Of a stretch of DNA of 64,000 bases, positions 19,672 through 34,483 are shown piece after piece. This DNA is from Sphingomonas changnyeongensis (GTDB lineage Bacteria; Pseudomonadota; Alphaproteobacteria; Sphingomonadales; Sphingomonadaceae): assembly GCF_009913435.1 (NCBI RefSeq), contig NZ_CP047895.1, positions 628,501 through 692,500 on the forward strand, in the 5' to 3' direction. The notes under the pieces were generated by a model that saw nothing but the letters and a program-made list of their open reading frames with translations, had not been told where the DNA came from and did not search any database. A program made the translations under genes and the position numbers. Positions within the stretch are counted from its first letter, which is position 1. Each line of letters starts with the position of its first letter.

Positions 19672-20565
19672 TCAGATCCGCTCGCCGGACAGGCGCTGGC
19701 AGATCAGATCGAGCTGATCGAGGCTTGAATAGCCAAGGGTGACGCTGCCGGCGGTGCCGCTATGGCTGATCCTGACCTTCAGGCCCAGCAGATCGCCCAG
19801 CTGCCGCTCGAGCGCGGCGATATCGGCATCGGCCGCCTGCACGCGCGGCGCCGCGCTCTGGGCAGGCGTGCCGCCGGTGCGGACATCGCGGGCCAGCCGC
19901 TCGGTCTCCCGCACCGACAGCCCCTTGTCGATCACCATCTGCGCCAGCTTTTCCGGATCGCGGGCCGTGATCAACGCGCGCGCATGGCCCATGGACAGCC
20001 GCCCATCGGCCACGGCCGCCCGGACCGGCGCGGGCAGATCGAGCAAGCGCAGCAGATTGGCGATATGGCTGCGGCTTTTGTGGACGATCCGCCCCAGCGC
20101 TTCCTGGCTGTGGCCGAAACGGACGATCAGCTTCTTATACGCCTCGGCTTCCTCGATGGCGTTCAGATCCTCGCGCTGAATATTCTCGACCAGCGCCAGT
20201 TCGAGCGTTTCGGCCTCGTCGAAATCGCGGACGATCACCGGCACCTGATGCAGCCGTGCCCGCTGCGCCGCGCGCCAGCGGCGTTCGCCGGCGACGATCT
20301 GATAGCCGCCGCCAAACGGGCGCGCGACGATGGGCTGGATCAGGCCGCGCGATTCGATCGATCGGGCCAGTTCGTCGAGCGCCGCCTCGTCAAAATGGCG
20401 GCGCGGCTGCTCCGGATGCGGCTGCAGTTCCGCAACCGGGACCATGAGGATTCCGCGCGACCGCTCGCCAGCGGGCGCGACCGGTTCCTCGCGCACCGCC
20501 TCACCCAGCAGAGCCGACAGGCCGCGACCAAGCCCGGCAGGCCGTTTACGATTGCCCTCGCTCAT
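19672..20565 (-). CDS. parB: Chromosome-partitioning protein ParB
   Basis: ParB loads at parS sites, spreads as a CTP-gated clamp and guides origin segregation with ParA. The 297-residue protein has the N-terminal CTPase domain (HPEQPRRHFDEAALDELARSI, then IVAGERRWRAAQRA with the GERRxRA motif), an ENIQREDLNAIEEAEAY helix, and the HTH RFGHSQEALGRIVHKSRSHIANLLRLLDLP. It ends in a dimerisation domain. The first 45 residues are a flexible Gly/Ala-rich stretch typical of the ParA-contact region. It follows parA by 47 bp and two parS-like sites lie within 4 kb. Confidence 0.97.
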   Translation of the reverse strand: MSEGNRKRPAGLGRGLSALLGEAVREEPVAPAGERSRGILMVPVAELQPHPEQPRRHFDEAALDELARSIESRGLIQPIVARPFGGGYQIVAGERRWRAAQRARLHQVPVIVRDFDEAETLELALVENIQREDLNAIEEAEAYKKLIVRFGHSQEALGRIVHKSRSHIANLLRLLDLPAPVRAAVADGRLSMGHARALITARDPEKLAQMVIDKGLSVRETERLARDVRTGGTPAQSAAPRVQAADADIAALERQLGDLLGLKVRISHSGTAGSVTLGYSSLDQLDLICQRLSGERI

Positions 20566-20612: not shown

Positions 20613-21392
20613 TCATGCGGCGCGGGCGCTGGGCGGCAGCCGGCCGATCAGCTCGCGGGCCAGCGCGATATAGGCTTCGGACCCCGGACAGCGATGGTCA
20701 TAGATCAGCGCCGGTACCCCATGGCTTGGCGCTTCCGACAGACGGACATTGCGCGGAATGACGGTGTCGAACACCACTCCGCCCAGACAGGTGCGGACAT
20801 CTTCGGCGACCTGCTCGGTCAAATTGTTGCGCCGGTCATACATGGTCAGCGCAACGCCGAGGATCGCCAGCGCCGGATTGAAGCGCGCGCGGATGCGGTC
20901 GATGGTCTGAAGAAGCTGGCTCAGCCCCTCCAGCGCGAAAAACTCGCATTGCAGCGGCACGAGCAGCGAATCCGCCGCCACCATCGCGTTGATCGTCAGC
21001 AAACCCAGCGAAGGCGGGCAGTCGATCAGGCAAATGTCCCAACGGCCCGGCGCGCCGGCAAGCGCATTGCGCAACCGGTGGGTGCGCTGGTCCATCTCGA
21101 CCAGCTCGATCTCGGCACCCGACAGATCGACCGTTGCCGGCACCAGATCGAGGCGCGGCACCTTGGTCGGCACCACCGCATCGGCAAGGCTGCACTGCGC
21201 CGTCAGCAGATCATAGCTCGAATGGCTGCGCTGAGCCTGACCGACGCCAAGACCGGTGGACGCATTGCCCTGCGGATCGAGATCGACCAGCAGCACGCGC
21301 CAGCCGGTTGCGGCCAATGCGGTGGCGACGTTGATCGCGGTGGTCGTTTTGCCCACCCCGCCCTTCTGATTTGCCACGCCGATACAGATCAT
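20613..21392 (-). CDS. parA: Chromosome-partitioning ATPase ParA
   Basis: ParA forms the nucleoid-bound gradient that pulls ParB-parS complexes apart. The 259-residue ATPase starts [17 protein letters not shown] with the deviant Walker A at residues 10-17. It has LLVDLDPQGNASTGLG (Walker A'), the switch segment DICLIDCPPSLGLLTINAM, and LPLQCEFFALEGL. I chose the ATG at 21392, which overlaps the rsmG stop (ATGA), over longer upstream readings that run antisense-like into rsmG. Part of the mnmG-rsmG-parA-parB unit. Confidence 0.97.
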   Translation of the reverse strand: MICIGVANQKGGVGKTTTAINVATALAATGWRVLLVDLDPQGNASTGLGVGQAQRSHSSYDLLTAQCSLADAVVPTKVPRLDLVPATVDLSGAEIELVEMDQRTHRLRNALAGAPGRWDICLIDCPPSLGLLTINAMVAADSLLVPLQCEFFALEGLSQLLQTIDRIRARFNPALAILGVALTMYDRRNNLTEQVAEDVRTCLGGVVFDTVIPRNVRLSEAPSHGVPALIYDHRCPGSEAYIALARELIGRLPPSARAA

Positions 21393-22006
21393 CGTGCCGT
21401 CCGCCTGACCTGGGTCGCGACAACGATCTGTGCCTGATCGTCCGTCACGCTCTGTTTCACGTGGAACACACCCTGCCATGCCGCGCGCGCAGCTTCCAGT
21501 TCAGACTGCGCGCTGCGCCCCTTGGGCAGGATCCAGACTGTGGATAAGTCCGCAACATGGGCAGCCGATGCGAAGATCTGCGGCAGCGGCGCATAAGCGC
21601 GGGCGGTGATCGCCCGGTGCGGGCCGGGCACAAGCTTCTCGACCGTCATCTGATGGACGCTGACATGACCGAGCCCGAGCATCTCGGTCGCATCGCGAAG
21701 AAACGTCACCCGGCGCGCCCGCGGCTCGACCAATGTCATCGGCTGGTCGGCCAGAATAGCGAGCACCAGCCCCGGCAACCCCGGCCCCGACCCGATATCG
21801 AGCCAGCTGGCGGCGTCGGGCGCATGGGTGAGCAGCTGGGCCGAATCAACGATATGCCGCCCCCAGACCACCGCCTCACTGGCGCGCGCGATCAGATTCT
21901 GCCGGCCATTCTCGGCCAGCAGCAGATCGACATAAAGCTCAAGCCGGGCACAGGCGGCCTGTGGCCAGCGGGCGGCGAGCCACGCCCGCGCTTCCTCCTC
22001 GGTCAC
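21389..22006 (-). CDS. rsmG: 16S rRNA (guanine527-N7)-methyltransferase RsmG (GidB)
   Basis: RsmG methylates G527 of 16S rRNA using S-adenosylmethionine; its loss gives low-level streptomycin resistance. The 205-residue protein shows [19 protein letters not shown], the HIVDSAQLL segment, the SAM loop [28 protein letters not shown] and [11 protein letters not shown]. It starts with GTG at 22006, overlapping the mnmG stop (GTGA). A parS-like palindrome is embedded in the codons for the C-terminal VFHVKQ segment at 21453-21468, so this coding stretch serves two purposes. Confidence 0.96.
21453..21468. promoter_or_regulatory. parS: parS-like ParB-binding site 1 (inside rsmG)
   Basis: TGTTTCACGTGGAACA matches the 16-bp bacterial parS consensus with one asymmetric position between its half-sites. 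It encodes the FHVK part of RsmG. Location next to parAB supports function as a centromere site. Confidence 0.88.
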
Positions 22007-26983: not shown

Positions 26984-27074
26984 TGTTTCCGTCGATCCCC
27001 ACAGGCTGTGCAGCCGGGCTGCAGAAACCGTCGGCAGCCGCCCCGACATTCCGGAGCGGCGGTGCCGCGGATCC

Positions 27075-28331
27075 TTACTGGTTCATCGAATCGAAGAAAT
27101 CCTCGTTGGTCTTCGAATCCTTCATCTTGTCGAGCAGGAACTCCATCGCGTCGACCGTGCCCATCTGCATCAGGATGCGGCGCAGCACCCACATCTTGCT
27201 GAGCGTCGACTTGTCGACCAGCAGCTCTTCCTTGCGGGTGCCGGATTTGCCGACGTCCATCGCCGGGAAGATGCGCTTGTCGGCGACCTTGCGGTCAAGG
27301 ACGATTTCCGAGTTGCCGGTGCCCTTGAACTCTTCGAAGATCACCTCGTCCATGCGGCTGCCGGTATCGATCAGCGCGGTGGCGATGATCGACAGCGACC
27401 CGCCTTCCTCGATGTTGCGCGCCGCACCGAAGAAACGCTTCGGCCGCTGCAGCGCATTGGCATCGACGCCGCCGGTCAGCACCTTGCCCGAGCTGGGCAC
27501 GACAGTGTTGTAGGCGCGGCCCAGACGGGTGATCGAATCGAGCAGGATCACCACGTCCTTTTTGTGCTCGACCAGGCGCTTGGCCTTTTCGATCACCATT
27601 TCGGCGACCTGCACATGGCGCGACGCCGGTTCGTCGAAGGTCGAGCTGATCACCTCGCCCTTCACCGACCGCTGCATGTCGGTCACTTCCTCGGGCCGCT
27701 CGTCGATCAGCAGCACGATCAGGAACACTTCGGGATGGTTGGCGGTGATCGAGCGGGCGATGTTCTGGAGCAGCACCGTCTTGCCGACGCGCGGCGGCGC
27801 GACGATCAGCGCGCGCTGGCCCTTGCCCTGCGGCGCGATGATGTCGATCACCCGCGCCGACTTATCCTTGACCGTCGGATCGCCCAGGTCGAGCTTCAGC
27901 TTCTGTTCGGGATAGAGCGGGGTCAGATTGTCGAAATTGACCCGGTGGCGCACCACCTCGGGATCGTCGAAGTTCACCGCGACCAGCCGGGTGAGCGCGA
28001 AATAACGCTCGCCATCCTTGGGTCCGCGCACCTCGCCCTCGACCGTGTCACCGGTGCGCAGGCCGTATTTGCGCACCTGGTTGGGCGACACATAAATGTC
28101 GTCGGGACCGGCGAGGTAGTTGGCCTCCGGGCTGCGCAGAAAGCCGAAGCCGTCGGGCAGCACCTCGATCGTGCCCTCGCCCATGATCTGGACGCCATTT
28201 TCGGCCTCGGCCTTCAGGATGGCGAACATCAGATCCTGTTTGCGCAGCGTCGACGCCCCTTCGACGCCCAGCCGCTCGGCCATTTCGACCAATTCGGCCG
28301 GCGATTTTTTCTTCAGATCCTTGAGGTGCAT
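27075..28331 (-). CDS. rho: Transcription termination factor Rho
   Basis: Hexameric RNA helicase that ends transcription at C-rich rut sites. The 418-residue protein has the Rho N-terminal helical domain ([17 protein letters not shown]), the cold-shock-like RNA-binding domain ([18 protein letters not shown] and [19 protein letters not shown]), and Walker [16 protein letters not shown]. It also has [17 protein letters not shown], Walker [17 protein letters not shown], the Q-loop/R-loop region, and a C-terminal KMWVLRRIL. All motifs are intact. A 254-bp upstream leader (28332-28585) may carry Rho-dependent self-regulation as in other bacteria. rho precedes hemJ and hemE in reverse order toward the origin. 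Confidence 0.98.
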
Positions 28332-28491
28332 GTAAAGTCCGGTGGCTAGGGGCTTGGGGGTGGAGCGATCGTCTCGGACCGGAGCCGGTCAACAGCCGGT
28401 CATCGGGCGACGACACAAGCAGACGAACGACACAGACGCGGATCGACGATGCCCGGTGCGGCGCAGGACGCGTCCGCAGGCAGATGCCAAC

Positions 28492-28520
28492 GAGTTAGGC
28501 AGCGGTCCAAGGCGAGTCAA
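28492..28520 (-). promoter_or_regulatory. Possible promoter of rho in the hemJ-rho gap
   Basis: On the minus strand TTGACT (28515-28520), a 17-bp spacer and TAACTC (28492-28497). The -35 is good and the -10 is poor. A GCCGGGG/CCCCGGC hairpin at 28521-28537 lies just upstream and could end the hemJ transcript. The rest of the 254-bp gap is GC-rich leader with no gene seen. Confidence 0.35.
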
Positions 28521-28585
28521 GCCGGGGCGTCCCCGGCAGCCAGAGCCCCCGGCCAGCACCTGACGGGGAGGCAGAAGCCGCTGCG

Positions 28586-29029
28586 TCAGAACGGCTTCAG
28601 CACCACCAGCCAGACGATCAGCACGACGCCCAGCGCGGGCAGCTCGTTGAGCATCCGCAGCCGGCGATCCGGCAGCGTCGCCCGCCCCTCACTGAGCTTG
28701 CGCGCATAGCCGACCGCCCAGCCATGAAAGCCGCTCAGCCCGAAAACGAGCGCCATCTTGGCATGCAGCCAGCCCGACGCCCACCACTGGCCCCCGGCGG
28801 CAAGCAGCAGCCCGAACAGCCAGACCGCGATCAGCGCCGGCGTCAGGATGATCCGGCGCAGCCGCGCCTCGCGCTCCACCCAGCGCGCCGCCTCGTCCGG
28901 CCGGCTGAGCGCATCCTGATGATGGATCAGATAGCGGGGGAAAATGAACAGCCCCGCCATCCAGAAAATCACGAAGATGATGTGCGCGGCCTTCAGCCAG
29001 TCATAGGCGGGCGCAAGCCAGGCTGCCAT
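28586..29029 (-). CDS. hemJ: HemJ-type protoporphyrinogen IX oxidase
   Basis: A 147-residue membrane protein of the HemJ (UPF0093) family, which oxidises protoporphyrinogen IX to protoporphyrin IX in bacteria without HemG or HemY. It has about four hydrophobic helices. The conserved N-terminal His is in LKAAHIIFVIFWMAGLFIFPRYL, and the family Lys is in WLHAKMALVFGLSGFHGW, the two residues shown to be essential in characterised HemJ. It is placed between hemE and rho, a typical alphaproteobacterial haem neighbourhood. The ATG at 29029 overlaps the hemE stop by one base (TGATG), so translation is coupled. Confidence 0.93.
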   Translation of the reverse strand: MAAWLAPAYDWLKAAHIIFVIFWMAGLFIFPRYLIHHQDALSRPDEAARWVEREARLRRIILTPALIAVWLFGLLLAAGGQWWASGWLHAKMALVFGLSGFHGWAVGYARKLSEGRATLPDRRLRMLNELPALGVVLIVWLVVLKPF

Positions 29030-30057
29030 CAGCCGCCTTTCCGCACGCGGGCCAGCAATTGTTCGACACGCTCGATCGGGGTGTCGAGCAGAATGCCGTG
29101 CCCGAGGTTGAACACATGCGGCCGACCGGCAAAGGCATCCAGCACCCGGTCAATCGCCGCATCGAGCGGGGCGCCGCCTGCGATCAGCGCCAGCGGATCG
29201 AGATTGCCCTGCACCGGCAACCCTTCGGGCAGATTGGCGTTCGCCCAGGCCGGATCGACCGTCTCGTCCAGCCCGACCGCATCGACGCCGGTTTCACGCG
29301 CATAAGCGGGCAGCTTGCCCCCCGACCCTTTGGGAAAGCCGATGATCGGCGTGTCGGGATGCCGCGCCCGCAGCGCCTTCACGATCCGTTCGGTCGGCGC
29401 GATGACCCAGGTCTCATACTGATCGGGCGACAGGCTGCCGGCCCAGCTGTCGAACAGCTGCACGGCATGGACGCCCGCCTGAATCTGGCGGTCGAGATAA
29501 TCGATGGTCGCCTGCTCGATCGCGGTGATGATCGCGCCAAAGGCTTGAGGGTCGCGATACGCCATGCGCCGCGCCTCGGCCTGTTCGCGGCTGCCCTCGC
29601 CCGCCACCATATAGGTCGCGACCGTCCAGGGGCTGCCGGCAAAGCCGAGAAACGTCACCGCCGGATCGAGCGCGCCTGCGACCAGCCGGACCGTTTCATA
29701 GACCGGATCGAGTCGCGCCGGCACCGGGGCCAGTTGTTCAAGCGCGGTGTCGACCAGCCTGGGGCTCAGCTGCGGCCCTTCGCCCGCCAGGAAGCGCAGA
29801 TCCTGCCCCAGCGCATGGGGAATGACGAGAATGTCAGAAAACAGGATCGCCCCGTCGAATCCGAACCGGCGCAGCGGCTGCAGCGTGACTTCGGCAGCCG
29901 CCGCGCTGTCATGCACAAGCTCGAGAAAACCGCCCTTTTCCGCCCGCAAGGCGCGATATTCGGGAAGGTAACGGCCGGCCTGGCGCATGAGCCAGACGGG
30001 CGGGGGATCACGGCGCTCGCCCCGCAGGACGGCAAGCAAGGGACGATCGCTCTTCAT
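29029..30057 (-). CDS. hemE: Uroporphyrinogen decarboxylase
   Basis: HemE removes four acetate carboxyls from uroporphyrinogen III to give coproporphyrinogen III in haem synthesis. The 342-residue protein shows the active-site motif WLMRQAGRYLPEYR near residue 23-36, the invariant Asp in LFSDILVIPHALGQ, GFAGSPWTVATYMV, LFDSWAGSLSPDQYE and the C-terminal FNLGHGILLDTPIE. Length and motifs are normal. The ATG at 30057 follows AAGGAT. Upstream lies the probable replication origin, the same gene-origin arrangement as in Caulobacter. Confidence 0.97.
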   Translation of the reverse strand: MKSDRPLLAVLRGERRDPPPVWLMRQAGRYLPEYRALRAEKGGFLELVHDSAAAAEVTLQPLRRFGFDGAILFSDILVIPHALGQDLRFLAGEGPQLSPRLVDTALEQLAPVPARLDPVYETVRLVAGALDPAVTFLGFAGSPWTVATYMVAGEGSREQAEARRMAYRDPQAFGAIITAIEQATIDYLDRQIQAGVHAVQLFDSWAGSLSPDQYETWVIAPTERIVKALRARHPDTPIIGFPKGSGGKLPAYARETGVDAVGLDETVDPAWANANLPEGLPVQGNLDPLALIAGGAPLDAAIDRVLDAFAGRPHVFNLGHGILLDTPIERVEQLLARVRKGG

Positions 30058-30102
30058 CTTATCCTTTTCTTAAGGTTCGGGTGGTTGATGATGTTAGAGC
30101 GC

Positions 30103-30274
30103 GAGTCATGGGAATTCAGGACGCATCCTGATCCTGCCAACAATTTGACGGCGTGGGAATCCGCAAAAGCGCCGCGAGTCGTTTCGCTCCTCCCCATTAT
30201 CCACATGGTCTGGATGAAAATTCGGGGCTGTGGACGGCATGGTGTGCGAATCACCGGACAGCGGGGCCTGAATC
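30103..30274. promoter_or_regulatory. Cluster of five GANTC (CcrM) methylation sites in the origin region
   Basis: GAGTC at 30103 and 30176 and GAATC at 30157, 30248 and 30270. At this base composition roughly one would be expected. In Caulobacter CcrM methylates GANTC to time origin-linked functions. Confidence 0.6.
30197..30205 (+). promoter_or_regulatory. DnaA box, perfect consensus
   Basis: TTATCCACA, a 9 of 9 match to the DnaA consensus, in the middle of the hemE-ppsR gap. Confidence 0.8.
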
Positions 30275-30309
30275 GCCCGTTCGATGCTTCCCCTTGCGTG
30301 TCACGCGGC

Positions 30310-30318
30310 TTTTCCACA
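30310..30318 (+). promoter_or_regulatory. DnaA box, one mismatch
   Basis: TTTTCCACA, 8 of 9 to consensus, 13 bp before the ppsR start codon. Confidence 0.6.
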
Positions 30319-30330
30319 GGGATATGCCCC

Positions 30331-31146
30331 GTGACCACGCGCCTGCACCTTCATCTGCTGTCGGATTCGACCGGCGAGACGCTTGAGACCATCGCCAAGG
30401 CGGCGCTTGCCCAGTTCGACGGGGTGGAAACGATCAGGCATTTCTGGCCGATGGTCCGCTCCGAGGCCAATCTGGAGCGCATTCTCGAGGAAATCGGCCA
30501 GAATCCGGGGCTGGTGCTGTTCACCCTGGTCAATCCCGAAACGCGGCAGCGGCTGGAGACGCGCTGCCGCACGCTCGGCCTGCCGATCGTCGCCGCGCTC
30601 GATCCGGTGACCGATGCGCTGTCGTCGATGCTGGGGCAGGCGGCCAAGGCGCGGCCGGGGCGGCAGCATGCGCTCGACGCTGCTTATTTCGCGCGGGTCG
30701 AGGCGATCCAGTTCACCATCGCCCATGATGACGGCATCGGTGCCGAGGATTGGGAAGATGCCGATATCGTGCTCGCCGGCATTTCGCGCACGTCGAAGAC
30801 GCCGACGTCCATCTATCTGGCCAACAAGGGTTATAAGGTCGCGAACATTCCGCTGGTCGTCGAATCGCCGCCGCCTGACAGCCTTTACCGGCTGCGTCGC
30901 CCGCTGGTCGTCGGGCTGACGACCAGCGTCGAGCGGCTGGTCGCGGTGCGCCGCAACCGGCTGCTGTCGCTCAATCAGACGCCCGAGACCGATTATGTCG
31001 ATCAGGATGCGGTGCGCGCCGAGCTGGCGTTCGCCCGGCGCATCTTCGCCGATCATGACTGGCCGGTGATCGACGTCACCCGCCGTTCGATCGAGGAAAC
31101 CGCAGCCGCGGTCATCAACTTCGTCAATGAGCGCAGGCCATGCTGA
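30331..31146 (+). CDS. ppsR: Bifunctional kinase/pyrophosphorylase PpsR (DUF299), PPDK/PEP synthase regulator
   Basis: DUF299 proteins switch pyruvate phosphate dikinase or PEP synthase off and on by ADP-dependent phosphorylation and Pi-dependent dephosphorylation of a Thr. The 271-residue protein begins LHLHLLSDSTGETLE, the family signature, and carries the P-loop VLAGISRTSKTPTS at about residue 150, followed by IYLANKGYKVANIPLV. I start at GTG 30331. The ORF is open far upstream into the origin gap, but the family start coincides with this GTG. It is the first gene on the plus-strand side of the origin, the place of CC0001 in Caulobacter. Confidence 0.93.
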   Translation: MTTRLHLHLLSDSTGETLETIAKAALAQFDGVETIRHFWPMVRSEANLERILEEIGQNPGLVLFTLVNPETRQRLETRCRTLGLPIVAALDPVTDALSSMLGQAAKARPGRQHALDAAYFARVEAIQFTIAHDDGIGAEDWEDADIVLAGISRTSKTPTSIYLANKGYKVANIPLVVESPPPDSLYRLRRPLVVGLTTSVERLVAVRRNRLLSLNQTPETDYVDQDAVRAELAFARRIFADHDWPVIDVTRRSIEETAAAVINFVNERRPC

Positions 31147-31733
31147 TCCTTGCCTCGCAAAGCGCCGCGCGGCGGGCGATGCTGACCGCCGCCGGGGTGG
31201 CGTTTGCCGCCGAAAGCCCGGGGGTCGATGAGGATGCCGCCAAGCAGGGGCTGCGCGCCGAGGGGCTGGACCCCCGCGCGCTCGCCGATGCGCTGGCCGA
31301 GCTGAAGGCGATGCGCCTGTCGCTGCGCCATCCGGGGGCGCTGGTGCTCGGCTGTGATTCGGTGGTCGCGCTCGACGATGGCACGGTGCTCGACAAGCCC
31401 GCCGACCGGGCCGAGGCCGCCGCCCATCTGCGCGCCATGTCGGGCCGCGTCCATCAGCTGCATTCGGCGGCGGTGATCTGCGAAAATGGCCGTCCCGTGT
31501 GGCGGGTCGTCGACCGCGCCGCGATGCATGTGCGCAAGCTGTCCGACGCGTTCATCGCGGACTATCTCGATCAGGACTGGGAAGCGGTGCGCTGGTGCGT
31601 CGGCGTCTACCGGATCGAAGGGCCGGGGGCGCAGCTGTTCACGCGGATCGACGGCAGCCATTTCACCATCATGGGCCTGCCGCTGCTGCCGCTGCTCGAT
31701 TATCTGCGCATCCGGGGACTGTTGACGTCATGA
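31140..31733 (+). CDS. Maf-like nucleoside-triphosphate pyrophosphatase
   Basis: A 197-residue Maf/HAM1-like protein that hydrolyses non-canonical or canonical nucleoside triphosphates as a house-cleaning enzyme. Features: LILASQSAARRAML at the N terminus (family SxSxxRR), the LGCDSVVALDDGTVLDKPADRAEA metal site with the catalytic Asp, MSGRVHQLHSAAVI and IDGSHFTIMGLPLLPLLDYL. The sequence fits the maf-2 type more than the YhdE dTTPase. It overlaps the end of ppsR by 7 bp and the aroE start by ATGA, as in the Caulobacter CC0001-CC0005 run. Confidence 0.9.
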   Translation: MLILASQSAARRAMLTAAGVAFAAESPGVDEDAAKQGLRAEGLDPRALADALAELKAMRLSLRHPGALVLGCDSVVALDDGTVLDKPADRAEAAAHLRAMSGRVHQLHSAAVICENGRPVWRVVDRAAMHVRKLSDAFIADYLDQDWEAVRWCVGVYRIEGPGAQLFTRIDGSHFTIMGLPLLPLLDYLRIRGLLTS

Positions 31734-32539
31734 CGCCTTATGCCGAGGTGATCGGGGATCCGATCGCCCATTCCAAATCGCCGCTGATCCATGGCTTCTG
31801 GCTCGAACGGCTCGGCCTCGACGGTGCCTATCGCGCCGCCCATGTCCGCCCCGAGGACCTTGCCGGCTATTTCGCCGGGCGCGCTGCCGATCCCGCATGG
31901 CGCGGGTGCAACATCACCGTGCCGCACAAGGAAGCGGCGCTGGCGCATGTGCTCGACCGCGGCGATGTCCGCGGCACGATCGGCGCGATCAACCTTGCCT
32001 ATCGTGACCGCGACGGCGCGATCGTCGGCGCGAACACCGATGCGGCGGGGTTTTATGATCCGATTTCCGCGCTCGACCTGACCGGTGAGCCGGTGACGGT
32101 GATCGGTGCGGGTGGCGCGGCGCGCGCCGTGCTGTTCGCGCTCGCGCGGATGGGGGCGGGGCCGGTCACGATCCTCAACCGCACGCCGATGCGCGGTGCC
32201 GCGCTGCTTGCCGCTTTCGGGCTGAAGGGCCGCGCCCTTCCATTGTCCGCGCCGCTGCCGCCGGCGCGGCTGCTCGTCAACGCCTCCACCCTCGGCATGA
32301 CCGGCCAGCCGCCGCTCGACATCGATCTGTCGCCGCTGCCCGGCGATGCCATCGTCTATGACATTGTCTATGCCCCGCGCGAGACGGCACTGCTGCGCGC
32401 GGCGGCGGCACGCGGGCTCGACATTGTCGACGGGCTGGCGATGCTGATCGGCCAGGCGGCCTATGCGTTTGAAATCCTGTTCGGCCAGCCCGCCCCGCGC
32501 GAGCATGACGACGCGCTGCGGGATCTGCTCGGCGCATGA
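31730..32539 (+). CDS. aroE: Shikimate dehydrogenase
   Basis: AroE reduces 3-dehydroshikimate to shikimate with NADPH in aromatic amino acid synthesis. The 269-residue protein starts YAEVIGDPIAHSKSPLIHGFWL with the substrate Ser pair. It has CNITVPHKEAA with the catalytic Lys, GANTDAAGFYD with the catalytic Asp, the Rossmann loop VIGAGGAARAVLFAL, ILNRTPMRGAALL, and VNASTLGMTG. I start at the ATG at 31730, overlapping the maf stop. The upstream in-frame extension overlaps maf and is not needed. Coupled to coaE by an ATGA overlap. Confidence 0.96.
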   Translation: MTPYAEVIGDPIAHSKSPLIHGFWLERLGLDGAYRAAHVRPEDLAGYFAGRAADPAWRGCNITVPHKEAALAHVLDRGDVRGTIGAINLAYRDRDGAIVGANTDAAGFYDPISALDLTGEPVTVIGAGGAARAVLFALARMGAGPVTILNRTPMRGAALLAAFGLKGRALPLSAPLPPARLLVNASTLGMTGQPPLDIDLSPLPGDAIVYDIVYAPRETALLRAAAARGLDIVDGLAMLIGQAAYAFEILFGQPAPREHDDALRDLLGA

Positions 32540-33225
32540 TCCTGCTCGGGCTGACCGGCTCCATCGGCATGGGCAAATCGACGGTCGCGGCGATGTTCCG
32601 CCGGCTGGGCGTGCCGGTGTTCGATGCCGATCAGGAGGTGCACCGGCTGCAGGGGCCGGGCGGGGCGCTGGTCGCCGAGATCGAGGCGCTTTTTCCGGGG
32701 ACGACGGGTCCGCTTGGCGTCGACCGTCAGGCGCTGGGCCGGGTGGTGCTGCACGACAAGGCCGCGCTTCACCGCCTCGAATCGCTCATCCACCCGGCGG
32801 TCGCGCGGGCGCGGGCGCGGTTCCTGCGCCGCCATGCGGCCCGGCGGCTGGCGGTGCTCGACATTCCGCTTCTCTATGAAAAACAGGGCTGGCGCGCCGT
32901 CGATGCCGTGGTCGTGGTGTCCGCCCCGGCCTGGATGCAGCGCCGCCGGGTGCTGGCGCGGCCGGGCATGACCCCGGCCAAACTCGCCCGTGTCCGCGCG
33001 CTCCAGCTGCCCGATGCCGAAAAACGCCGCCGCGCGGATTTCGTCATCGACACCGGCGGGCTGATCGATCGCACGCGCGCCGATGTTTACCGTCTCGTCA
33101 CTTGCCTCCGCGCGCACGGCGTCCGATATTGCCGCCAATGCGCGAGATCGTCTTCGACACCGAAACCACCGGCATCCAGGTCTCAGAAGGGCACCGGATG
33201 GTCGAGATCGGGTGCGTCGAGCTGA
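32536..33225 (+). CDS. coaE: Dephospho-CoA kinase, with C-terminal extension overlapping dnaQ
   Basis: CoaE phosphorylates dephospho-CoA as the last step of coenzyme A synthesis. It has the P-loop GLTGSIGMGKST at residues 5-16, FDADQEVH, LIHPAVARARARF, VLDIPLLYE and a LID/CoA segment with RARALQLPDAEKRRRADFVIDTGG. Homologues end near residue 195 (LVTCLRA). Here the frame runs 33 residues further, to 229, with an Arg/Ser-rich tail read through the first 88 bp of dnaQ in another frame. I see no stop in any frame near the usual end, so this may be the true gene or a small sequence error. The aroE-coaE overlap is ATGA. Confidence 0.92.
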   Translation: MILLGLTGSIGMGKSTVAAMFRRLGVPVFDADQEVHRLQGPGGALVAEIEALFPGTTGPLGVDRQALGRVVLHDKAALHRLESLIHPAVARARARFLRRHAARRLAVLDIPLLYEKQGWRAVDAVVVVSAPAWMQRRRVLARPGMTPAKLARVRALQLPDAEKRRRADFVIDTGGLIDRTRADVYRLVTCLRAHGVRYCRQCARSSSTPKPPASRSQKGTGWSRSGASS

Positions 33226-33851
33226 TCAACCGAGTCGAGACCGGCCGGGTGTTCCATGCCTATTTCAACCCCGAACGCTCGATGCCGCCCGAGGCGCAGG
33301 CGGTCCACGGCCTGTCGGAAAGCTTCCTGTCGGGTCAGAAGCTGTTCGTCGAGCTGTGCGAGGAGCTGCTCGACTTTCTGGAGGACAGCCCGCTCGTCGC
33401 GCACAATGCGGCGTTCGATTTCGCCTTTCTGAACCATGAGCTGGGCGTGGCCGGGCGGCTGCACATCCCGCGCGCGCGGATGGTCGACACGCTTGCCTTG
33501 TCGCGCGCCAAGCATCCGGGTGCCAAGCACAGCCTTGATGCGCTGTGCACGCGCTACGGCGTCGATCGCAGCCACCGGATCAAGCATGGCGCGCTGCTCG
33601 ACGCGCAGCTGCTTGCGCAATGCTATGTCGAACTGACCGGTGGCCGGCAGATCGGCCTTTCTCTCGGCGCCGAGGCCGTGGCCGGCCCCGGGCCTGCGCC
33701 CGCGCCCGCAACCGGGCAGCCGGCGTCGCGCCCGGCGCGGCCGCCCCGGCCGCACGCCGCTTCGCATGACGAGCTTGCCCGTCATGCGGCCTTTCTCCAG
33801 CAGATCAGCAATCCGTTGTGGCTGGAGGGTGCGGCGGCCCCGGCCGCCTGA
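33138..33851 (+). CDS. dnaQ: DNA polymerase III epsilon subunit (3'-5' exonuclease)
   Basis: The proofreading exonuclease of the replicative polymerase. The 237-residue protein has Exo I MREIVFDTETTG at residues 1-12, an HGLSESFL segment, Exo II VAHNAAFDFAFLNHEL with the catalytic Asp, and Exo III HSLDALCTRYGVD with a catalytic His and Asp nearby in HGALLDAQLLAQCYVELTGGRQ. The C-terminal 45 residues are Pro/Ala-rich and would bind the alpha subunit. I chose the ATG at 33138. A longer reading to 33102 is possible but less family-like. It lies 88 bp inside the coaE frame. Confidence 0.95.
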   Translation: MREIVFDTETTGIQVSEGHRMVEIGCVELINRVETGRVFHAYFNPERSMPPEAQAVHGLSESFLSGQKLFVELCEELLDFLEDSPLVAHNAAFDFAFLNHELGVAGRLHIPRARMVDTLALSRAKHPGAKHSLDALCTRYGVDRSHRIKHGALLDAQLLAQCYVELTGGRQIGLSLGAEAVAGPGPAPAPATGQPASRPARPPRPHAASHDELARHAAFLQQISNPLWLEGAAAPAA

Positions 33852-33901
33852 GTGAAAGACGCCGGCAGCCACCCGGTTCCGGCGTGGTGAAGGAGAGAAA
33901 G

Positions 33902-34483
33902 ATGGAAGTCCGCGTCTCAGGCCATCAGGTCGATGTGGGAGAATCGCTGCGCTCGCACGCCGAGGAGCGCGTCCACAGCATCGCCGAAAAGTACTTCGCC
34001 CGCGCGATTTCCGCCCAGGTCCGGTTCGGCAAGGGGCCGCATGACCATCGGTTCGACTGCGAAATCGTGATCTATGTGCCCGGCGGTGTCGTGCTGAAGG
34101 GCAGCACGCGGGCGAACGAGGCGCAGCCGGCGTTCGAGGAAGCGCTCGCCAAGATCGAAAAGCAGCTGCGCCGGCATCACCGCCGGATCAAGGACCGCGC
34201 CGGCCAGGCCGCGGCGGTTCAGGCAGCATTCGACGATGCCGGCTATACGGTGTTCAGCCTGCCTGAGCCGGAAGAGGATGAACAGCTTGCCGACAATGCG
34301 CCGATCATTGCCGAAACCCGGGTCGATGTGCCCGATGCCAGCGTGTCCGACGCCGTGCTGATGCTGGACCTGCGCAACACCAATGCGCTTTTGTTCAAGA
34401 ACAGCGCGACAGGCATATTGAATATGGTCTATCGGCGCGGCGACGGCACGATCGGCTGGGTGGAGCCAGAGCGCACCGCCTGA
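33902..34483 (+). CDS. hpf: Long-form ribosome hibernation promoting factor
   Basis: HPF binds idle 30S subunits and, in the long form, pairs two ribosomes into 100S dimers in stationary phase. The 193-residue protein has the N-terminal S30AE domain (MEVRVSGHQVDVGESLRSHAEERV, FGKGPHDHRFDCEIVIYVPGG, EALAKIEKQLRRHHRRIKDR) and the C-terminal dimerisation domain (MLDLRNTNALLFKNSATGILNMVYRRGDGTIGWVEP). The ATG at 33902 has a strong AAGGAGAG Shine-Dalgarno. It is followed by tandem hairpins and ptsN. No rpoN gene is next to it, unlike the usual rpoN-hpf-ptsN order. Confidence 0.95.
   Translation: MEVRVSGHQVDVGESLRSHAEERVHSIAEKYFARAISAQVRFGKGPHDHRFDCEIVIYVPGGVVLKGSTRANEAQPAFEEALAKIEKQLRRHHRRIKDRAGQAAAVQAAFDDAGYTVFSLPEPEEDEQLADNAPIIAETRVDVPDASVSDAVLMLDLRNTNALLFKNSATGILNMVYRRGDGTIGWVEPERTA

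Follow-up and report, generated by a model that had tools for sequence, protein, structure and literature searches.

The hemE-ppsR gap of Sphingomonas changnyeongensis as a predicted DnaA-dependent chromosome origin with a dense GANTC cluster and a conserved 15-bp element

Background

The DnaA origin of Escherichia coli, oriC, is densely supplied with sites of an orphan adenine methylase, in the system formed by GATC, Dam and SeqA. In Sphingopyxis granuli TFA and other Sphingomonadaceae an oriC carrying conserved DnaA boxes and a putative DUE was predicted near hemE with DoriC/Ori-Finder, according to passages of PMC4741004, and the dnaA gene is described in part of PMC8116508 as lying away from ori in Sphingomonadales. 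Several GANTC sites occur at the Caulobacter origin, as stated in a passage of PMC3973325 that cites a comparison from 2009, and the same passages report a general enrichment of this motif in alphaproteobacterial intergenic regions. Methylation of GANTC by CcrM has been described for a Sphingomonas strain (excerpt of PMC8067484). In passages of PMC6090056 CcrM of Caulobacter is not required for initiation, while its overexpression disturbs the chromosome number; depletion of CcrM had no obvious effect on the DnaA-dependent ori1 of Agrobacterium (excerpt of PMC11514494), and methylation affects initiation at ori2 of the same bacterium (excerpts of PMC6090056 and PMC11514494).

In this work, we present an analysis of the gap between hemE and ppsR in a 64,000-nucleotide stretch of DNA, called here the window, and conclude that this gap is very probably a DnaA-dependent bidirectional origin of the Caulobacter (Cori) hemE/COG1806 kind. 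Since an origin at this locus was already the published expectation for sphingomonads (passages of PMC4741004), the placement has less novelty than the original prediction had implied.

Methods

The window corresponds to positions 628501-692500 of a 2,869,229-bp contig (C1), which places the gap at about 658.6 kb; the assembly contains one more contig, of 135,864 bp. Window positions are given unless a contig is named. Strand skews were computed from samples of 20 kb per 40 kb as detrended cumulative curves, and the change-point fits fully covered 280-1000 kb except for 7,500 masked letters. For KOPS, dif and parS we applied general patterns, and stability was computed with general nearest-neighbour values. 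Triplet repeats were compared with the general DnaA-trio rule.

The set of 102 family gaps was composed of the window, 29 loci from the relatives search and 80 loci kept as the best of 567 relatives, after six exact duplicates and two loci that lacked hemE had been removed; close relatives (e.g. those of the S. sanguinis/paucimobilis group) were counted separately, and the family gaps are not independent events. Twenty further gaps (L108-L127, with one same-family genome included: L108, G034) represent 20 of the 24 relatives-search matches beyond the 30 with loci. The gap alignment contained 32 sequences chosen from the 122 gaps. As a control we used the neighbouring rho-hemJ intergenic gap, which was usable after filtering in 72 of 81 loci, the other 9 being dropped.

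DnaA boxes were searched as TTWTNCACA, a widened version of TTATNCACA given in passages of PMC1914354, from which the CtrA and IHF consensuses were also taken. Single sites in the window were scored against TTATCCACA.

Results

Gene neighbourhood

The sequence features, their conservation and the chromosome geometry given in this section were observed directly. The gap, which we predict to be oriC from synteny, DnaA boxes, skew/KOPS/dif geometry and family conservation, has 273 bp (30058-30330). It separates hemE, encoding uroporphyrinogen decarboxylase (29029-30057, minus strand; TIGR01464 above cut-off), from ppsR (DUF299/COG1806; 30331-31146, plus strand, GTG start; NF003742 above cut-off). 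Downstream of ppsR, profile matches to maf, aroE, coaE and dnaQ follow in this order, those to maf and aroE being strong, yet under the curated cut-offs; the gene order on which the original prediction relied was thus recovered by profile searches. The gap was flanked by ppsR and an upstream divergent hemE in 128 of 130 loci, with the window and six exact duplicates counted. In two loci no hemE was found: in L162 the sequence ends 303 bases upstream, and in L087 the search covered 1,500 bases upstream. The latter locus (G032:C2) retains both ppsR and the 15-bp element described below, a possible local rearrangement at an origin.

The relatives search covered 59 genomes, including that of the window itself, and found ppsR in 54 of them. 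Among the best 80 of 567 relatives the closest ppsR product was that of Sphingomonas sp. UBA1000 (96% protein identity), and those of S. changbaiensis and S. horti showed 85% identity. In one single-contig genome ppsR begins at base 60 (G047:C1:60-845), and therefore its depositors probably cut the circle at the hemE-ppsR origin.

On the other side of hemE lie parB (19672-20565, minus strand; TIGR00180 above cut-off) and a gene for a parA-like ATPase (20613-21479, minus strand). None of the 25 families shown for the latter exceeded its curated cut-off, and because the ParA-family matches begin near residue 29-33, its real start is probably further inside the open reading frame. A parS-like site, TGTTTCACGTGGAACA, was found at 21453-21468, within the rsmG frame near its 3' end; with as many as 2 mismatches allowed, the genome has no other copy. 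It is 8.6 kb from the gap, and parS, parA and parB together span distances of 8.6-10.4 kb; their expected proximity was therefore borne out, at slightly more than the 6-10 kb first proposed. We also noticed that parS and a perfect DnaA box on the minus strand (21453-21547 together) are about 70 bp apart, both in the rsmG frame and upstream of parA.

Chromosome geometry

The detrended cumulative TA skew had its minimum in the sample with its centre at 650 kb, and when one change point was fitted to this skew, it was best placed at 655-660 kb (bootstrap 5-95%, 505-810 kb). GC skew was less informative. Its cumulative curve forms a flat trough at about 330-770 kb, within about 0.02 of the lowest value, with the lowest sample at 490 kb and the maximum at about 2.13-2.17 Mb, and its change point alone prefers 330 kb; with both skews the change point fell at 570 kb (505-735 kb). 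By the change-point fit and the cumulative curve, GC skew alone did not localise the strand switch. The GC-skew minimum that had been expected at the gap is thus compatible with a trough spanning it, but the trough is too flat to decide, and its lowest sample lies at 490 kb against 658.6 kb for the gap.

The KOPS-type motif GGGNAGGG occurred 98 times in forward and 25 times in reverse orientation right of the gap (36 samples), and 18 and 123 times, respectively, left of it (35 samples). The switch of its polarity was best placed at 699-704 kb and stayed within 2 lnL over 566-730 kb, so that the likeliest breakpoint is 40 kb right of the gap and the gap itself is 1.7 lnL worse. One dif-like site, with 3 mismatches in 18, was found at 2,131,873, opposite 697 kb on the circle. 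TA skew, KOPS and the dif-like antipode give best estimates that are each no more than about 50 kb away from the gap, but their error ranges are wide; these lines agree on one zone, not one base. A strand-asymmetry switch opposite the dif-like terminus was found in this way by TA skew, KOPS and the dif antipode. In two relatives, G031 and G022 (20 samples of 20 kb each), the skews were noisy; KOPS polarity was clear in G031 (right arm 30:12, left arm 12:36) and not clean in G022 (23:19 and 6:19). The dnaA gene lies about 950 kb from the gap, in keeping with what is described for Sphingomonadales in part of PMC8116508.

DnaA boxes

The gap contains a perfect DnaA box, TTATCCACA, at 30197-30205 and an 8/9 box, TTTTCCACA, at 30310-30318, both on the plus strand, together with two weak box-like sites on the minus strand, at 30209-30217 (7/9) and at 30229-30237 (6/9, with a TCCACA core). 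All four had been noted before, and their positions and scores were reproduced. In the 32-sequence alignment the 30209-30217 site showed no clear conservation, and the TGTGGA-like core of the 30229-30237 site returned in many rows. At least two TTWTNCACA boxes, as present here, were matched by only 1 of 20,000 dinucleotide shuffles of the gap. In 72 samples of 20 kb, covering half of the chromosome (142,056 windows of 273 bp), the gap was the sole locus with a perfect box and a second one of at least 8/9, and 25 windows had two 8/9 boxes but none perfect. Genome-wide, TTWTNCACA was matched 28 times and its reversed control 32 times, and because of this the boxes alone are weak evidence. Five exact matches lie within 550-800 kb, where only the pair in the hemE gap is less than 300 bp apart.

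The 102 family gaps contained 119 boxes, compared with a mean of 1.25 in shuffles, and 98 of the 119 fall at two places upstream of ppsR: 46 boxes (in 46/102 gaps) at 128-152 bases, on either strand, comparable with the window box at 30197, and 52 boxes (in 52/102 gaps) at 15-33 bases, comparable with that at 30310. At least one box was present in 75 family gaps and two or more in 39; for all 122 unique gaps these numbers were 92 and at least two in 54. No TTWTNCACA box was found in 27/102 family gaps and 3/20 further gaps, 30 in all. In the 72 loci compared, the origin gap had 91 boxes and the rho-hemJ gap 1.

Upstream of dnaA (C1:2575711-2575759) we also observed a pair of DnaA boxes with a spacing of 40 bp, accompanied by four GANTC sites, a pattern that suggests self-regulation of dnaA.

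The AT-rich zone beside hemE

Nearest-neighbour stability points to 30057-30098 as the AT-rich, least stable stretch of the gap and a candidate unwinding element. The AT-rich patch which had been indicated at 30058-30077 is therefore real, and its hemE-side position is conserved in relatives: the least stable 30-mer begins at most 50 bp from hemE in 95/102 family gaps and at most 70 bp from it in 19/20 further gaps, and the AT content on the ppsR side of family gaps is no higher than in mid-gap. The stretch is one of four in the window that are so unstable, and chromosome samples, which are GC-rich, contain about 4.7 per 100 kb of such low stability. An AT zone fixed on the hemE side has the expected look of an unwinding element, and its role as the unwinding site is therefore supported as a prediction; its conservation could also be translational, because the patch, as read from the sequence, overlaps the hemE Shine-Dalgarno region.

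Runs of GNT-type triplets occurred on the AT-rich side in 29/102 family gaps, compared with 8.3 in mononucleotide shuffles. They were not accepted as DnaA-trio repeats, since neither the polarity of the triplets nor the way the nearest box is oriented agrees with the rule.

Other sites were searched as well. A strict CtrA site (TTAA-N7-TTAA) was absent from the gap, and one loose CtrA-like site, TTAT-N7-TTAA at 30059, lies inside the AT-rich/Shine-Dalgarno stretch; in the family 24 loose sites (TTWW-N7-TTWW) were found in 21/102 gaps, against 5.4 in mononucleotide shuffles, which ignore clustered AT. The IHF consensus WATCAN5WTR had no match in the gap, and across the 102 family gaps it was found 4 times, where shuffles gave 4.2. 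A scan of 30000-30400 predicted neither a sigma-70 promoter nor a terminator, and an Rfam search of 27000-34000 gave no match.

The GANTC cluster

By motif search, five GANTC sites were found in the 273 bp of the gap: GAGTC at 30103-30107 and 30176-30180, the latter being the best conserved in the family alignment, and GAATC at 30157-30161, 30248-30252 and 30270-30274. The densest 273-bp GANTC window of the sampled 1.8 Mb, with six sites, overlaps the gap, and the genome sample as a whole has 0.90 sites per kb. In G031 and G022 (20 samples of 20 kb each) the top 300-bp window, with seven sites, likewise overlaps the origin gap, so that the densest GANTC window is at the gap in 3/3 chromosomes (sampled 1.8, 0.4 and 0.4 Mb). 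Only one other sampled locus, L073:15640-15990 (C1, about 2,775.6 kb), has five GANTC sites in 273 bp.

The cluster extends through the family. The 102 family gaps contain 592 GANTC sites (18.5 per kb), whereas dinucleotide shuffles had a mean of 158 and a maximum of 180, and seven motifs of the same composition reached 1.3-4.8 per kb; at least three sites were present in 94/102 gaps. In 72 loci the origin gap had 19.2 sites per kb and the rho-hemJ gap 5.1, a nearly fourfold difference, the latter itself being above the genome value of 0.90; per locus the origin gap had more sites in 71, an equal number in 1 and fewer in none. Outside the family the density was lower: in the 20 further gaps, of which 19 belong to other families within the order, it was only 5.3 sites per kb, and 26 of their 44 sites came from the near-identical pair L118/L119, 17/20 gaps having 0-2 sites. 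The gaps of this pair (G050, G038; another family of the order) have 13 GANTC sites each.

A ccrM-family open reading frame of 331 aa scored 534.5 bits with NF050803, below the cut-off of 830. In this ccrM-like gene (C1:2059866-2063024; L230:521-1659) the 331-aa methylase frame is accompanied by a matching C-terminal RAMA end in another frame, which is either a genuine frameshift or an assembly error. The family match of gcrA (C1:1814281-1814972; L231, L232) was also divided into two parts that lie in different frames. It is curious that one assembly has both genes split; errors made in sequencing GC-rich runs may be the dull explanation. With ccrM and gcrA each split over two frames in this assembly, active methylation in this organism is putative.

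The 15-bp element

The best conserved block of the gap, TGCCAACAATTTGAC (30135-30149, plus strand), was recognised in family gaps and in a genome pattern search, and is near origin-exclusive. Its core GCCAACA-N2-TTGAC was present in 68/102 family gaps and 0/20 further gaps. The exact form TGCCAACAN2TTGAC had 33 matches in 32 of 119 family genomes, while the reversed control had 4, and 28 of the 33 lay at most 400 bp upstream of ppsR and on its strand. The five off-origin matches (a second copy in G099, and G123, G129, G135, where no ppsR was found, and G141) are about the number predicted by the reversed control. The tag thus marks the origin in 28/119 Sphingomonadaceae genomes, about one in four of those searched.

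In family gaps no conserved -10 was found at the proper distance after TTGAC, and the 15-mer was rejected as the -35 of ppsR for lack of one at the right spacing. On its reverse strand the element reads TTGGCA and is followed 15-17 bp on by an ATAAG-like block, which is also a degenerate DnaA box, and a perfect one in L084 and L174. Judging from these letters, the element is probably either a binding site for a further factor or the -35 of the hemE promoter, which TTGGCA and the ATAAG-like block could make up together. Among the literature matches listed, only its short form TGCCAACAG was found, in papers with unrelated titles.

Discussion

The original prediction that the gap is the chromosome origin is supported by TA skew, KOPS, the dif antipode, parS, synteny and the conserved boxes. 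From these data we infer a course of events of which each binding, opening and regulatory step is conditional. DnaA would bind at 30197 and 30310, the two good boxes, as well as at the weaker sites that lie between; the AT-rich stretch next to hemE (30057-30098) would open, and the helicase would be loaded there. After firing, the GANTC sites of the gap would be left hemimethylated until CcrM acts, and their methylation state is a plausible timing signal.

Three other explanations were weighed. That the origin adjoins dnaA (2,574-2,576 kb), the hemE gap being merely a divergent promoter regulated by DnaA, could draw on the two TTWTNCACA boxes 40 bp apart and the four GANTC sites within 552 bp upstream of dnaA, but this region has a mid-arm place, negative GC skew and reverse KOPS, lacks parS and is about 950 kb off the skew switch, all of which makes it extremely unlikely. 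An origin elsewhere in the 560-730 kb zone, for example in the parS/rsmG-parA region, would agree with the resolution of KOPS and skew, which is about 100 kb or worse, and this region has its own perfect box (21539-21547), about 70 bp from parS. That box, however, is inside the rsmG frame, only the two hemE-gap boxes among the five TTWTNCACA matches of 550-800 kb are within 300 bp of each other, and it is the hemE gap that has the family-wide conservation and, within the 1.8 Mb sampled, the highest GANTC count; we regard this placement as very unlikely.

The features might also belong to a divergent hemE-ppsR promoter regulated by GcrA and CcrM, with origin activity being incidental. TGCCAA and TTGAC may be read as resembling back-to-back -35 hexamers, GANTC is commonly enriched in alphaproteobacterial intergenic regions (passages of PMC3973325), and the rho-hemJ gap, too, exceeds the genome average (5.1 versus 0.90 per kb). 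Against this, neither a sigma-70-like promoter within 30000-30400 nor a conserved -10 after TTGAC was found, GANTC sites are about a fourth as dense in the rho-hemJ gap, where DnaA boxes number 1 versus 91, and the chromosome geometry indicates the gap independently. Moreover, the roles of promoter and origin are compatible, transcription of hemE being described as important for Caulobacter replication in part of PMC8959179. An explanation by promoter function is therefore most improbable, and a DnaA-dependent origin in the hemE-ppsR gap is preferred.

Within this preferred placement, a further and more speculative possibility is that the sphingomonad origin is gated by methylation. The GANTC cluster, selected for number and not exact position, would render the hemimethylated origin refractory or active and replace the missing CtrA and IHF sites in limiting initiation to once per cycle, and a protein recognising the near single-copy TGCCAACAN2TTGAC would mark the origin. 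We consider this rather unlikely, and it is made less likely by the lack of any obvious effect of CcrM depletion at ori1 of Agrobacterium (excerpt of PMC11514494). Among the matches listed, none described GANTC sites clustered at the oriC of a sphingomonad.

Placing the origin in the gap fixes the coordinate origin of the chromosome, and whole-chromosome signals now back what was only predicted for sphingomonads. Of greater use than the placement itself are two features that the original prediction had not mentioned, the GANTC cluster and the 15-bp element; a dense cluster shared throughout the family makes CcrM control of a primary DnaA origin directly testable. For Caulobacter (PMC6090056) and for ori1 of Agrobacterium (PMC11514494) the published statements argue against such control.

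The closest described system is Cori of Caulobacter crescentus, which by its published description shares with the gap the flanking hemE and DUF299/COG1806 genes, DnaA boxes, an AT-rich stretch and several GANTC sites (passages of PMC1914354, PMC8959179 and PMC3973325). Cori differs in having five TTAA-N7-TTAA CtrA sites, whereas the gap has no strict site of this kind and no IHF consensus, and, unlike at Cori, dnaA of this chromosome is about 950 kb from the origin gap. Position, DnaA boxes and AT-rich zone make the gap a hemE/COG1806 origin; as the IHF consensus was not found, it is filed as an origin of the hemE/COG1806 position which does not share all Cori regulatory sites. The GATC-based arrangement of E. 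coli oriC uses a different methylase and a different site. The repABC origins of rhizobial chromids and plasmids resemble the gap in their unusual wealth of GANTC sites, both within the origin and next to it (excerpts of PMC6090056 and PMC11514494), but they are driven by RepC, unlike the gap, which is of the DnaA/hemE type. The oriC of Sphingopyxis granuli TFA has the same position near hemE, boxes and a putative DUE; the main-text passages of PMC4741004 mention neither a GANTC cluster nor the 15-bp element, the two features that stand out in the gap described here.
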